DNA of 40,678 bases from Pseudomonadota bacterium (GTDB lineage Bacteria; Pseudomonadota; Gammaproteobacteria; Burkholderiales; Thiobacillaceae), in NCBI GenBank assembly GCA_021826065.1, contig JAKADY010000027.1:1-40678 (forward strand), in the 5' to 3' direction. The notes below the pieces were generated by a model, which was not told the origin of the DNA, did no database searches, and saw nothing but the letters and a program-made list of their open reading frames with translations. A program made the translations under genes and the position numbers. Shown here piece after piece: positions 27,575-35,780 of the stretch (positions within the stretch are counted from its first letter, which is position 1; the number at the start of each line of letters is the position of its first letter).

Positions 27575-29013
27575 ACGATGTCGTTGCCAGAACGGGTCAG
27601 GACCAGCAGCCGGTAGAGCCAGGCATACTGGTTGGCGCTCGCCTCCCAGCTGAAGTCCTTCTGCATGCCGGCCAGCATCATGCGCCGCCAGGCCGGCTTG
27701 TCCTGGAACACCGTCAGGGCCCGCTGGATCGCCCCCCAGAGGCCCTCGGGCGAGGCCTCGGTAAAGACGAAGCCGGTCACGCCGTCCTCGACGGTGTCCT
27801 TGAGCCCCCCGGTGGCGAAGACCACGGGGATGGTGCCGTAGCGCTGGCTGTACATCTGGTTGAGGCCACACGGCTCGAAGCGTGAGGGCATCAGGAAGAC
27901 GTCGGCCCCCGCCTCGATGCGGTGCGACAGCCCCTCGTCGTAGCCGATGATGCTCGCCACCCGGCCGGGGTGGCGTGCGGCGATGTCGTGACAGGCCTGT
28001 TCCAGATGGGCCTCGCCCTTGCCCAGGATCACCAGCTGCGCCCCTGCGGCCACCAGGCGGTCGGCGATGGCGGCCACCCAGTCGATGCCCTTTTGATAGG
28101 TCAGCCGGGAGATCACCCCGAACAGGGGGGTCTCGGGCTGGATCTCTAGGTTGAGGTCCTGCTGCAGGGCCAGCTTGCAGCGCCGCTTGCCGGCCAGGGC
28201 ACGGCTGGAGTACTCGCAGGGCAGGTGGAGGTCGCTGGAGGGGTTCCAGTCCGCCATGTCGATACCATTGAGAATGCCGGTGAGCCGATCCCGGCGGCTC
28301 GCCAGCAGGCCCTCCATGCCCATGCCCAGGGGGCTTTGCTGGATCTCGCGGGCGTAGCTGGGGCTCACCGTGCTGATCCAGTCGGCGTAATAGAGCCCCG
28401 CCTTGAGGAAAGAGAAGTTGCCGTAGTACTCCACCCCCTCCACCTGGAAGCTCGCGGCCGGCAGGCCCAGCGGGACCACCAGGTCGGGGGGGAAGATGCC
28501 CTGATAGGCCAGATTGTGGATGGTCATCAGGCTGGGGGCGCCACCGCCGGCGAAATGCAGATAGGCCGGTGCCAGGCCGGTCTGCCAGTCGTTGCAGTGC
28601 AGGACATCCGGCCGCCAGGCCAAGGGGGTGTCTGGGGCGGAGATCAGGGCGGCGATGCGGGAGAGCAGGGCGAAGCGCCAGGCGTTGTCGGGGTAGTCGC
28701 GGCCGCTCGCGTCCTGGTAGGGGCCGCCGTCGCGCTGGTAATGCCAGGGATAGTCGATGACATAAACCGGCACGCCGGTGTCGGGCATCTGCCCCTCCAG
28801 CAGGCGCACCGCCCCGTAGCCCGGCAGGTCGTTGAGCCGCAGCCGTTCCCGGGCGTTGACCACCCCGGCGATCACCGGATGGTAGCCCGGCAGCAGCAGG
28901 CGGCAGTCCAGGCCGATCTCGCGCAGGGCGGCGGGCAGGGCGCCCGAGACGTCCGCCAGGCCGCCGGTCTTCACCAGCGGGCGGGCCTCCGGGGTGGCGA
29001 ATAGGACCTTCAT
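27571..29013 (-). CDS. glgA: Glycogen synthase (ADP-glucose type)
   Basis: A GT5 glycosyltransferase that adds glucose from ADP-glucose to growing alpha-1,4-glucan. The N-terminal sugar-nucleotide motif KTGGLADVSGALP, the HCNDWQTGLAPAYL segment and the C-terminal domain motifs RLTYQKGIDW and SRFEPCGLNQMYSQRYGTIP are intact. The protein is 480 residues from ATG 29013 (MKVLFATPEARPL); a longer in-frame ATG at 29091 adds a Pro/Arg-rich leader that does not look real. It is a single gene here; other glg genes are not in the window. The stop codon lies in a REP-like element. Confidence 0.95.
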   Translation of the reverse strand: MKVLFATPEARPLVKTGGLADVSGALPAALREIGLDCRLLLPGYHPVIAGVVNARERLRLNDLPGYGAVRLLEGQMPDTGVPVYVIDYPWHYQRDGGPYQDASGRDYPDNAWRFALLSRIAALISAPDTPLAWRPDVLHCNDWQTGLAPAYLHFAGGGAPSLMTIHNLAYQGIFPPDLVVPLGLPAASFQVEGVEYYGNFSFLKAGLYYADWISTVSPSYAREIQQSPLGMGMEGLLASRRDRLTGILNGIDMADWNPSSDLHLPCEYSSRALAGKRRCKLALQQDLNLEIQPETPLFGVISRLTYQKGIDWVAAIADRLVAAGAQLVILGKGEAHLEQACHDIAARHPGRVASIIGYDEGLSHRIEAGADVFLMPSRFEPCGLNQMYSQRYGTIPVVFATGGLKDTVEDGVTGFVFTEASPEGLWGAIQRALTVFQDKPAWRRMMLAGMQKDFSWEASANQYAWLYRLLVLTRSGNDIV

Positions 29014-29152
29014 GGTGGCGGTAGTCTTGCGGCGGTCAGGCGGGGTCGGCAGGACGGTCGGGTTCTGACGTCTTCGCCAGGGTTTTTGCACAGTATGCCT
29101 TATACCACCGAATCACGACAGCACGCCGCTCGCCGGCAGCCCTGGTCTCAGG

Positions 29153-29180
29153 ACAAAAAAGAGACGCCGCAGCGTCTCTT
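29153..29180 (-). terminator. Rho-independent terminator of the DsrE-like lipoprotein gene
   Basis: AAGAGACGC (29159-29167) and GCGTCTCTT (29172-29180) form a perfect 9-bp stem with a 4-base loop. On the minus strand the stem runs straight into a T-run (plus-strand AAAAAA at 29155-29160). It begins 43 bases past the stop of the lipoprotein gene, making that gene a probable single-gene transcript. Confidence 0.88.
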
Positions 29181-29222
29181 GGGTTCGGTGCGAGGTGCCG
29201 GGGGCGTTCCCCGGCAGGCCGC

Positions 29223-29657
29223 TCAGGGTTTCAGATAGACGTAACCCTCTTTGGACTGCAGCCGGCCGATCTCCGCCACGCCGGAGGGCACCACGGTGGC
29301 GTCCATGATCACTGCATTGTCATCCAGCTTGCGGCCGGTCAGGGTGTTGCGGCAGACGCGGAATTCGACCCCCTTGTCCTTGAGACCGGCGACCTGGGGC
29401 TGGTAGGGTTCGCCTTTCTCGTCCTTGGCGTCGTTGAGCAGGAAGTCGATGCCCTTGCCGTGGGTGACCACCACGATCTTGGCATCGGGGTTGGCGGTGA
29501 TGTGGTTTTGCACGTTGCGCATCGCTGTGCGGGCGACGGCCGAGTCGTTGATGTGATAGACCACCTTCTCCTGCTTGCTGTCGGCGGCCGGGCCGGCGGT
29601 GGCGCAGCCGGTGAGACCGAGAACCAGGGCGGTGGCGATGAGTGCATTGCGGATCAT
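29223..29657 (-). CDS. DsrE-like lipoprotein
   Basis: A 144-residue predicted lipoprotein with signal MIRNALIATALVLG and lipobox LTGC, lipidated Cys18. The mature part is a DsrE/DsrF-like fold: KVVYHINDS first strand, KIVVVTHGKGIDFLL, then EFRVCRNTL with Cys102 at the position where sulfur-carrier DsrE proteins often hold their reactive cysteine, ending EGYVYLKP. It aligns along its length with the C-terminal domain of the anti-sigma factor encoded at 30407-31129, including Cys-x-Asn-Thr and the Y/W-V-Y-L/I-K end. A GGAGGG precedes ATG 29657. Upstream is an ECF-type promoter element matching that of the divergent sigma gene. A periplasmic role in sulfur or thiol chemistry is inference. Confidence 0.85.
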   Translation of the reverse strand: MIRNALIATALVLGLTGCATAGPAADSKQEKVVYHINDSAVARTAMRNVQNHITANPDAKIVVVTHGKGIDFLLNDAKDEKGEPYQPQVAGLKDKGVEFRVCRNTLTGRKLDDNAVIMDATVVPSGVAEIGRLQSKEGYVYLKP

Positions 29658-29728
29658 GTTGTCCCTCCAGTGAAGATCAGTGGTCAAAAAAGCATTGCAA
29701 GCGTCGCCGGTTAGTCTGCGACTGTCGT

Positions 29729-29757
29729 AGAGACGCAACAGCAGCGCAATTTATTCC
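29729..29757 (-). promoter_or_regulatory. ECF-type promoter element for the DsrE-like lipoprotein gene
   Basis: Read on the minus strand: GGAATAA (29757-29751), 16 bases, then GTCTCT (29734-29729). The first box has the GGAA core of ECF -35 elements, and the second resembles the (C)GTC -10 core. The same boxes with the same 16-base spacing occur in the opposite orientation in front of the sigma gene. The leader to ATG 29657 would be about 65 bases. Confidence 0.68.
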
Positions 29758-29792
29758 ATGGGTGATTGGGCCCATTGACCCCGGCGGCGAAT

Positions 29793-29821
29793 GGAATAAT
29801 CCTGAGGCCTGCACCGTCTCT
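29793..29821 (+). promoter_or_regulatory. ECF-type promoter element for the sigma/anti-sigma operon
   Basis: GGAATAA (29793-29799), 16 bases, then GTCTCT (29816-29821), identical in both boxes and in spacing to the element facing the lipoprotein gene. Transcription would begin near 29828, leaving about 28 bases with a strong GGAGGAG before GTG 29856. This implies autoregulation by the sigma factor. The two -35 boxes extend to a 9-bp dyad, TTATTCCAT/ATGGAATAA (29751-29759, 29791-29799), which could alternatively be a repressor or activator site. Confidence 0.68.
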
Positions 29822-29855
29822 GAGACGTGGCACATACCGATGGAGGAGAACACGC

Positions 29856-30410
29856 GTGCCCCCTGCCTTGTCCGCACTCTGGCCCAGCCGGCTCTGCCGT
29901 GAGGTCGAGACGCTGCGCCCGCGGCTGTACCGCATGGCCTATGCCTGGTGTCACGATGCCCATCTTGCCGAGGACCTCACGCAGGAGGCCATCACCAAGG
30001 CCCTGGCCCGCTGTGGCCAGCTGCGCGAGGTCGAGTCTGCACCGGCCTGGTTGTTTGCCATCCTCAACAACTGCTGGCGCGACCATCTGCGGGCCCGGCG
30101 TGAGCTGAGCGACATCGACGAGCTCGATGACGTGGTCCTCGATGCTCAGCCGGGTCCGGAGGGGCTTTACGAGTCGCGCCAGACCACCGACCGCGTGCGC
30201 GCGGCCATCGCCAGCCTGCCCATCGCCCAGCGTCAGGTCATCACCCTGGTGGATCTGGAGGAATACAGCTACGCCGAGGTGGCGCGCATCCTGGAGGTGC
30301 CCGTGGGTACGGTCATGAGCCGCCTGTCACGCGCGCGCCAGGCGCTCAAGGAACGCCTTGTGGCGCAGGAGTCCAGTAGCCGGCGCACGCAACTGCGGAG
30401 GGTCAAATGA
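29856..30410 (+). CDS. ECF-subfamily RNA polymerase sigma factor
   Basis: A 184-residue two-domain sigma-70 family protein. Region 2 is seen in YRMAYAWCHDAHLAEDLTQEAITKAL and NCWRDHLR, and region 4 in LPIAQRQVITLVDLEEYSYAEVA with the recognition helix VPVGTVMSRLSRARQAL. Start is GTG 29856, eight bases after GGAGGAG; the upstream frame is open to 29766 but lies across the promoter element. The stop overlaps the anti-sigma ATG (ATGA), the standard arrangement for a sigma held by its partner. It probably recognises the GGAATAA-N16-GTCTCT element upstream of itself and of the divergent lipoprotein gene. The ECF subgroup cannot be fixed by eye. Confidence 0.93.
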   Translation: MPPALSALWPSRLCREVETLRPRLYRMAYAWCHDAHLAEDLTQEAITKALARCGQLREVESAPAWLFAILNNCWRDHLRARRELSDIDELDDVVLDAQPGPEGLYESRQTTDRVRAAIASLPIAQRQVITLVDLEEYSYAEVARILEVPVGTVMSRLSRARQALKERLVAQESSSRRTQLRRVK

Positions 30411-31129
30411 GCGAACGCCTGTCGCACGAGCTCCTCTGCGCCTACCTCGATGGGGAGCTGACCCCGGCCGAGCGTGAGCGTGTGCTGCGGCTGAGGGAGC
30501 AGGATCCCGCGGTCAAGGCGGCGGTCTGTGAGCTGCGCACGCTCAAGGAGATGGTTCGCGCCAGCTACCCGCTCGGGCAGCCCCGGGCACACGTCGGTCT
30601 GCCGTTGCGCAACTGGGGCGGGCTGCGCCAGGCCCTGGCCGCCGTCCTGATCCTCGCCTGTGGCCTGGGGCTGGGCTGGATCGCCAACGAGCAATTCCAC
30701 CGGCTGCCCGGATCGCAGCGGATCGAGGGCCTGCCGGCCGGTGTGCAGCCCGTGTCGCTCAACCGGCGGGCAGACCCCGACAAACTGGTGCTGCACGTCG
30801 ACAGCGGTGAGCGCGCCGTCATCGATCGCGCCCTGACCCTGGCCGAGGCCCTGGCAGCGCAGAACCGCGGCCGCCGCCAAGTGGAGATCGTGGTGCACAG
30901 CGCCGGTTTGGACATGCTGCGGGCGGACGTCACCCCCTTCCGCGAGCGCATCCACCGTCTGGCCAGCCGGCATGCGAATCTCAGCTTCATCGCCTGCGGC
31001 AACACCATCGCCCGGCTGCAGCGCGAGGGCAAGACCGTGGTCCTGCTGCCGGTGGCAAAACGGGTGGATTCGGCCGTCGGCGAGATCGTCCAGCGTCTGC
31101 AACAAGGCTGGGTCTACATCAAGGTCTGA
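30407..31129 (+). CDS. Membrane anti-sigma factor with C-terminal DsrE-like domain
   Basis: A 240-residue single-pass protein. Residues 1-50 form an anti-sigma N-domain (SHELLCAYLDGELTPAERER) in which His7 remains but the zinc motif H-x3-C-x2-C is not present. One membrane helix spans about 73-92 (LRQALAAVLILACGLGLGWI). After a short linker, residues 126-240 make a DsrE-like domain: KLVLHVDSGE, VEIVVHSAGLDMLR, SFIACGNTI with Cys197, end GWVYIKV. It aligns with the divergent DsrE-like lipoprotein. The expected topology puts the anti-sigma part in the cytosol and the DsrE part in the periplasm. It is coupled to the sigma gene by a 4-base overlap. A sensing role for the DsrE domain is inferred. 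Confidence 0.87.
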   Translation: MSERLSHELLCAYLDGELTPAERERVLRLREQDPAVKAAVCELRTLKEMVRASYPLGQPRAHVGLPLRNWGGLRQALAAVLILACGLGLGWIANEQFHRLPGSQRIEGLPAGVQPVSLNRRADPDKLVLHVDSGERAVIDRALTLAEALAAQNRGRRQVEIVVHSAGLDMLRADVTPFRERIHRLASRHANLSFIACGNTIARLQREGKTVVLLPVAKRVDSAVGEIVQRLQQGWVYIKV

Positions 31130-31265
31130 ACGACGGTCGGCCGGCCCGACTATACCGCCTGCCGACTTGAAGCCGGCCGGTGTGACGCGCATCCGCCGGC
31201 GCTGCAGCTTTTTCCCGCGCCAGCCGATATAGTAGAGCGCCTCAGGAACGTCAGCGGGAGGGCTT

Positions 31266-32207
31266 ATGCTGGAGATCGGTCTTTATGGCCTGGGTCGCAT
31301 GGGCGGCAACATGGCCCGACGTCTGTCACGCGGCGGTGTGCGGGTGTGCGCCTACAACCGCAGCTTCGAGGTCACCGAACGCATCGCCGCGGAAGAGGCG
31401 AACGTCCTGGCCTGCGCCAGTCTGCAAGAGATGGTGCAGGGGCTCGCCGCGCCGCGCGTGGTCTGGTTGATGCTGCCGGCCGGGGCGCCCACGGAACAGG
31501 CCATCGATGCCGTCGCCGACCTGCTCTCGGCTGGCGATCTCTTGGTCGACGGGGCGAACGGCTACTACAAGGACGCCCAGCGTCGCGCGAAGGCACTCGA
31601 TGCGCGCGGGATCGACTTCGTCGATGTCGGTGTCTCGGGGGGTGTCTGGGGGCTTGCCAACGGCTACTGTCTGATGGCGGGTGGGCGTGCCGAGGCGGTG
31701 GAACGGCTCGCCCCCTACCTGCGCATCCTCGCCCCGGCGCCCGACCAGGGATGGCTGCACGCCGGCCCTTCCGGTGCCGGGCAGTTCGTCAAGATGATCC
31801 ACAACGGCATCGAGTACGGCATGATGCAGGCCTTCGCCGAGGGTTTTGCCCTGATGCGCGCCAAGCAGGAATTCGGCCTCGACCTGGCCGCCATCGCCGA
31901 GCTGTGGCGACACGGCTCTGTCGTGCGCTCCTGGCTCCTGGACCTCACCGCCGATTTCCTGCGCGAGGATCAGGGGCTGGAGTCGATCGCGCCCTTCGTC
32001 GCCGACTCCGGGGAGGGGCGCTGGACCGCCCTGGAGGCGGTGGAGCAGGGTGTGCCGGCCCCGGTGATGTCGCTCGCGCTGATGATGCGCTTCGCCAGTC
32101 AGGGCCGCAGCGACTACGCCAACCGGCTGCTCGCCATGATGCGCAAGGGCTTTGGCGGCCATGCGGTCCAGTCGGGGCCGGCGGCTGGCGGCGAGGGGCA
32201 GGGGTGA
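31266..32207 (+). CDS. gnd: 6-phosphogluconate dehydrogenase, decarboxylating, short form
   Basis: It oxidises and decarboxylates 6-phosphogluconate to ribulose 5-phosphate. The coenzyme motif [16 protein letters not shown], the substrate motif [21 protein letters not shown] and the catalytic [19 protein letters not shown] are clear. At 313 residues it belongs to the short (GntZ/YqeC-like) class, which often prefers NAD+, rather than the 470-residue class. GGGAGGG lies 4 to 5 bases before ATG 31266. zwf starts 41 bases after it, so the two oxidative pentose-phosphate steps are adjacent; a lactonase gene is not between them. Confidence 0.94.

Positions 32208-33971: not shown

Positions 33972-35780
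<1,809 letters not shown>

Follow-up and report, generated by a model that had tools for sequence, protein, structure and literature searches.

The closest described systems are those of the S. meliloti ECF26 sigma factors RpoE1 and RpoE4, both of which answer sulfite-generating compounds (PMC3511301, in the parts of the paper available). Within ECF26, a response to sulfite or tetrathionate is on record for only part of the group. Added sulfite failed to induce the RpoE1 and RpoE4 reporters, and the authors assume that intracellular sulfite generation is needed (PMC3511301). The S. meliloti ECF26 consensus is given as a −35 box GGAATA and a −10 box GT, and the listed promoter of rpoE4 holds GGAATAA-N16-GTCTCT (PMC6180224); the start site of that promoter has been mapped in earlier work. 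DsrE-type proteins have been studied in sulfur oxidation. DsrE-Cys78 of Allochromatium is a sulfur-binding residue without which sulfur oxidation fails, and neither thiosulfate nor glutathione persulfide is a direct sulfur donor to DsrEFH (PMC3397948). Metallosphaera DsrE3A, as a purified protein, forms a Cys-S-thiosulfonate with tetrathionate and is unreactive with sulfide, polysulfide, thiosulfate and sulfite (PMC4175335; as with the preceding paper, from the portions available).

The sensing of sulfur intermediates outside the inner membrane of bacteria is an open question. The sulfur-responsive regulators OxyR, those of the MarR family, SoxR and sHdrR of the ArsR type, and AdpA are transcription factors, and soluble. 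The locus described here is a tractable candidate for study, as it offers one promoter sequence, one sigma factor and an anti-sigma factor with a single predicted periplasmic cysteine, and the flanking genes on both sides are usable as reporters. It lies within a window of 40,678 nucleotides, the whole stretch of DNA that was analysed, and is made up of the following features.

29159–29180, minus strand: terminator-like hairpin 3' of the lipoprotein gene (two such sites in the stretch against 1.3 expected)
29223–29657, minus strand: DsrE-family lipoprotein, 144 aa; PF02635; Cys102 codon at 29354–29352; GGAGGG at 29668–29663
29729–29757, minus strand: predicted divergent promoter of the DsrE lipoprotein gene; −35 GGAATAA at 29757–29751, C at 29735, −10 GTCTCT at 29734–29729
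29751–29799, no strand: 9-bp dyad TTATTCCAT ... ATGGAATAA, with arms at 29751–29759 and 29791–29799, from two extended −35 boxes
29793–29821, plus strand: predicted promoter of the sigma/anti-sigma operon; −35 GGAATAA at 29793–29799, C at 29815, −10 GTCTCT at 29816–29821
29856–30410, plus strand: ECF sigma factor, 184 aa; GTG start; GGAGGAG at 29842–29848
30407–31129, plus strand: anti-sigma factor, 240 aa; N-terminal anti-sigma domain, membrane segment, DsrE-like C-terminus
30629–30688, plus strand: predicted membrane segment of the anti-sigma, residues 75–94; hydropathy peak, helix 73–98 in the model
30782–31126, plus strand: DsrE-like domain of the anti-sigma, residues 126–240; Cys197 codon at 30995–30997

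The original prediction, made by eye, was that GGAATAA-N16-GTCTCT occurs once on each strand at this locus, and both copies, at 29793–29821 on the plus strand and 29757–29729 on the minus strand, are exact. Chance had been thought hard to credit as an explanation of the pair, and this judgement holds: with up to two mismatches allowed, 0.12 matches are expected in the window and three were found, two of them exact and the third (29151–29179) overlapping the hairpin of the terminator-like site. A genome-wide search, which had been proposed at the outset, found GGAATAA-N16-GTCT only at these two places in 2,744,182 bases (74 contigs), with no copies of the reversed-pattern control, and the frequent or randomly placed motif that had been named as a warning sign was looked for across the genome and not found. 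The looser pattern GGAATAW-N15-17-CGTC gave three places against two in the control, the third lying inside an open frame of 616 codons. With so low an expectation in the window, only two sites in the genome and the conservation in relatives described below, a chance repeat is hardly credible. Both sites end their spacer in C, a base also kept in relatives, so that GGAATAA-N15-CGTCTCT is the better description of the site. No sigma-70 consensus promoter was found at 28900–31400, and an Rfam search of 29000–31300 gave no match. The observation made by eye has become a defined class of promoter whose regulon is small.

The sequence had further been put forward as a candidate recognition sequence for the sigma factor encoded alongside it. 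The promoter reading is strongly backed by related loci and by S. meliloti rpoE4, but the sequence is not new, as it follows the ECF26-type consensus. Because S. meliloti rpoE4 has a mapped promoter with the identical motif, the promoter type (−35 GGAAT, −10 CGTC) is a known one, and the two predicted promoters of the window are additional members of this class. In S. meliloti Ak57, the exact motif lies around 70 bases upstream of a sigma gene that stands beside genes for sulfite oxidase, cytochrome c and pseudoazurin. The window sigma scores 94 bits against this sigma at the rpoE4 position, 80 and 72 bits against presumed ECF26 sigmas of the same record, 59 against RpoE2 (ECF15) and 21 against FecI. 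In a sigma tree, it falls with the ECF26 sigmas and the ECF15 RpoE2 on long branches that do not separate ECF26 from ECF15, and it stands apart from E. coli RpoE and from the RpoE-like sigma of its own genome. A 3.7-Mb S. meliloti record titled plasmid pSymB (CP090106.1) looks like a mislabelled chromosome, since it carries rsiA1/rsiB1, leuA and the rpoE4 locus.

RpoE4 with its anti-sigma EcfR4 (ECF26, sorT regulon; PMC3511301, PMC6180224 and PMC6527743) resembles the window system in its promoter boxes, their spacing and its autoregulation, and in the order of the genes, with the sigma followed by a membrane anti-sigma that is homologous in its N-terminal and membrane parts. The two systems differ in their targets, which in the accessible text on RpoE4 is the sulfite dehydrogenase operon and here would be the divergent DsrE lipoprotein gene. 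Anti-sigma residues 4–93 align with the S. meliloti RpoE4 anti-sigma and the alignment stops at residue 93; the periplasmic part, DsrE-like in the window, is unlike that of the S. meliloti protein, in which a DsrE match in Pfam was not found. RpoE1 (ECF26) is like the window system in that a promoter of the same type serves a secreted lipoprotein; its lipoprotein, as described in the source text available, is co-transcribed upstream, opens the operon and carries repeats of a ‘lipoprotein 15’ motif rather than DsrE. An anti-sigma bearing DsrE was found neither in the titles and abstracts of the literature searched nor in the available text of PMC3511301 and PMC10512742, and neither DsrE nor ECF26 occurs in the text of PMC8103513 and PMC7406223. 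The Paracoccus stretch examined gave no functional lead, and a Caballeronia stretch was without annotation.

The conservation of the promoters was scored out of 11 positions at 36 oriented loci, the window's own counted. The sigma-side site matches at 10 or more positions in 34 of them, the exceptions being L009 and L025. Among the 27 loci that have a divergent lipoprotein relative, 25 reach this score at the divergent site (L009 and L025 again fall short), as do three of the nine loci without one. In a class-wide set of 19 loci, 15 have the sigma-side site and 13 the divergent site, and some of the distant −10 boxes read CATC. When an exact match was required, the sigma-side site was present in 39 of 53 loci, the divergent site in 28, both in 26 and neither in 12. 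A spacer of 15 bases precedes CGTC in 37 of the 39 sigma-side sites and 24 of the 28 divergent sites; in the rest it has 14. L068 and L069, probable duplicates of L154 and L150, were dropped from the 53-locus set; the alignment of 31 anti-sigmas and the 19 class-wide loci, taken together, count their genomes twice. Two near relatives of the same genus, L066 and L067, are contigs labelled as uncultured Burkholderiales bacterium. In L009, the promoter region upstream of the sigma gene is replaced by sequence with matching inverted ends, insertion-like in appearance.

The frame that follows the divergent promoter was also read in 15 distant or unassigned loci. Ten frames were judged from their translations to encode secreted DsrE-like proteins (L139, L142, L143, L146, L149, L150, L152, L153, L155 and L157), and the remaining five loci gave no frame, or the wrong one. 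Matches to the anti-sigma (E up to 0.001) are found in 111 of 199 genomes, the own genome included and DsrE-only matches counted, and in the class sample in 98 of 369 genomes at the same threshold (own included), some through the DsrE part only. By this comparison of sequences, the predicted anti-sigma/DsrE module is one that recurs across the class.

In 117 family genomes, GGAATAW-N15/16-CGTCYT occurs at 148 sites against 16 for the reversed control; the window's own genome has no such site, because its boxes read CGTCTC. Where the anti-sigma match is strong (best E 1e-25 or lower), 79 of 88 genomes have the site; it is found in 6 of the 28 others, of which 8 have a weak listed match and 20 none (Fisher p 1.5e-11; the two-by-two table omits G116). 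As most sites are at the sigma locus itself, this co-occurrence overlaps in part with the evidence from conservation. The pattern bears on whether another sigma of the same genome might use the two promoters. Other ECF-like sigma genes are indeed present, including two on contig C16, but the sigma encoded at C16:24538 groups with E. coli RpoE, the motif sites of the genome are found only at the window sigma gene and, family-wide, the sites accompany the anti-sigma gene, so that use by another sigma is very improbable. The window sigma very probably recognises both promoters.

The −35 boxes were also said to form a 9-bp dyad. The inverted repeat is real, but its standing as a separate element was not borne out, as the gap between the two −35 boxes ranges from 11 to 92 bases across 26 loci. 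The extra pairs of the dyad come about largely because T precedes GGAATA in most sites (directly before it in 31 of 39 sigma-side and 20 of 28 divergent sites), and the dyad is, in this comparison, a mere side effect of the two −35 boxes in their extended form. Its arms, 9 bp each, pair perfectly across 31 intervening bases, which might suggest an operator for a DNA-binding regulator, to which the promoter likeness would be secondary. The conserved −10 box and its spacing, both outside the dyad, and the varying distance between the boxes speak against this, making it very improbable, and the dyad as an operator was set aside because arm spacing is not conserved in the 26 loci. Loci of genus g7 show added conservation at the beginning of the spacer that follows the divergent −35 box (GGAATAAGCGTNCCA in many of them), more than recognition of a promoter would appear to require.

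On the right of the promoters, the GGAGGAG of the sigma gene lies seven bases ahead of its GTG start, and the start of the anti-sigma gene overlaps the end of the sigma gene by four bases. The layout of the anti-sigma, with an N-terminal anti-sigma domain, a membrane segment and a predicted periplasmic part, encoded downstream of the sigma, fits an ECF26 system. As there is one clear hydropathy peak, at residues 75–94, the DsrE-like domain is predicted to be periplasmic. Pfam PF02635 (DsrE) gave no match to the single anti-sigma protein at E up to 1. The C-terminus matches PDB 1l1s at E 6.4e-7 as a single sequence and at E 1.5e-14 as a profile, and 1l1s was also returned by Foldseek (TMt 0.88) with the AlphaFold model, which has a mean pLDDT of 79.9, a pTM of 0.57 and block means of 88–94 from residue 121 on. 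The same C-terminus shares 29% identity with the lipoprotein over 89 columns (E 1e-6). The lipoprotein itself matches PF02635 at 51.8 bits against a cut-off of 22.7, and LTGC at its residues 15–18 was taken by eye for a lipobox.

The lone cysteine past the membrane segment (Cys197 of the window protein) is invariant in all 31 aligned anti-sigmas; the matching stretch holds a cysteine in all 19 class-wide loci (two being duplicates), and the lipoproteins carry the same cysteine (Cys102 in the window). The DsrE-type fold with a conserved cysteine is a likeness to Allochromatium DsrEFH and Metallosphaera DsrE3A (PMC3397948, PMC4175335), which, in the available text of these papers, are cytoplasmic carriers, whereas the copies in the window are a lipoprotein and an anti-sigma fusion. 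The genome also encodes soxB, identified by reading, and a Dsr-type DsrE-family protein with a cysteine at position 78, opposite which the invariant cysteine is set by an alignment that is not significant (E 0.11, probability 0.5%).

Further targets were sought in relatives among the 51 of the 148 sites that are away from the sigma locus. Of these, 38 were read and 13 left out, several of the latter being apparent coding matches or an assembly duplicate. Recurring gene families lie downstream of 25 of the read sites, with none recurring at the other 13, and the 38 are not independent, since near relatives contribute some of them (one pair of SoxB-like genes shares 94% identity). Most frequent are SoxB-like proteins of the 5'-nucleotidase family (10 sites at 9 loci), then secreted DsrE-like proteins (7), TPR proteins (4) and DUF255 proteins (3, by reading), and one site precedes a second ECF sigma. 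For the SoxB-like, DsrE and TPR groups a single representative apiece was checked in Pfam, and the SoxB-like targets would be relatives of SoxB, not SoxB itself, since the representative scored 127.7 bits with the SoxB model against a cut-off of 550.

No additional target stands out in the genome to which the window belongs. A larger regulon was considered and dropped, as the nine one-mismatch sites do not exceed the 11 of the control; the seven extra ones each lie within an open frame of at least 265 codons, which is weak coding evidence in G+C-rich DNA. The DUF255/DsbH-like gene at 33972–35780 of the window, three genes downstream, was weighed because similar genes bear the motif in three related genomes (L079, L081 and L099), and was rejected, as no comparable site lies upstream of it. 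A comparable site was likewise not found upstream of soxB (L121), nor a GGAATAA/CGTC-type promoter upstream of the third DsrE-family gene (L119, G000:C19). The L119 gene, outside the sigma locus, encodes a DsrE-family protein with a signal-peptide-like start.

An ECF26-type circuit, with divergent promoters, a sigma factor, autoregulation and an anti-sigma, is the likely arrangement, supported in that the genome's only two motif sites stand back to back at the sigma gene. The sigma (29856–30410) would read −35 GGAATA(A/T) and −10 CGTC and transcribe, from putative start sites, its own sigma/anti-sigma operon rightward and the DsrE-family lipoprotein gene leftward. The cytoplasmic N-terminal domain of the anti-sigma would keep the sigma at the inner membrane; its release would follow a signal at the DsrE-like domain in the periplasm, for which modification of Cys197 by sulfur or redox chemistry is the most likely form. 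As the lipoprotein shares fold and cysteine with the anti-sigma, it probably handles the signal compound, perhaps in detoxification, or feeds back on the anti-sigma. Counting against the circuit are the two of 36 loci without a sigma-side site, the 12 of 53 without both exact sites, the CATC −10 boxes of some distant loci, the mixing of ECF15 RpoE2 with ECF26 in the sigma tree, the search for more targets in this genome that brought none to light, and the missing PF02635 match of the anti-sigma.

Since the anti-sigma and the divergent secreted protein share a kind of domain, what the circuit senses may be sulfur chemistry on the outer side of the inner membrane. That the anti-sigma senses periplasmic sulfur or thiol chemistry is a tentative reading, held with slightly less than even confidence, and direct sulfur sensing is disfavoured by the S. 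meliloti sulfite, Metallosphaera DsrE3A and Allochromatium DsrEFH results, as far as the available text of those sources goes. With the same promoters and circuit the signal could instead be a non-sulfur one, the DsrE-like domain serving for docking or the cysteine answering oxidative or envelope stress. This is a real possibility, though a distinctly less than even one; it gains from a periplasmic domain unlike that of the sulfite-responsive S. meliloti anti-sigma and from results, in the portions available, that speak against a direct reaction of some DsrE proteins with sulfur compounds (PMC4175335, PMC3397948), and it loses from motif sites of relatives that precede SoxB-like and DsrE genes, from the soxB and Dsr-type DsrE of the own genome, and from the nearest characterised sigmas, which in the sources available respond to sulfite-generating compounds or tetrathionate. 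The broader form of the sulfur-sensing proposal is rather unlikely. It holds that periplasmic DsrE anti-sigmas are widespread sulfur sensors, in which a cysteine persulfide or thiosulfonate, perhaps received from the DsrE lipoprotein, would be relayed into a transmembrane signal. If true, a periplasmic DsrE relay would report sulfur-oxidation intermediates to transcription.

Two or three full-length anti-sigma-DsrE genes are found in each of G278, G402, G329, G307 and G424, and in G307 and G424 two of them adjoin on one contig. At L083 (G036:C156:6000-12800), in a related genome, a second ECF sigma gene is likewise served by a divergent pair of GGAATAA/CGTC promoters; the gene on the divergent side resembles an FAD-type oxidoreductase, and a motif-bearing SoxB-like gene lies around 2.8 kb away.
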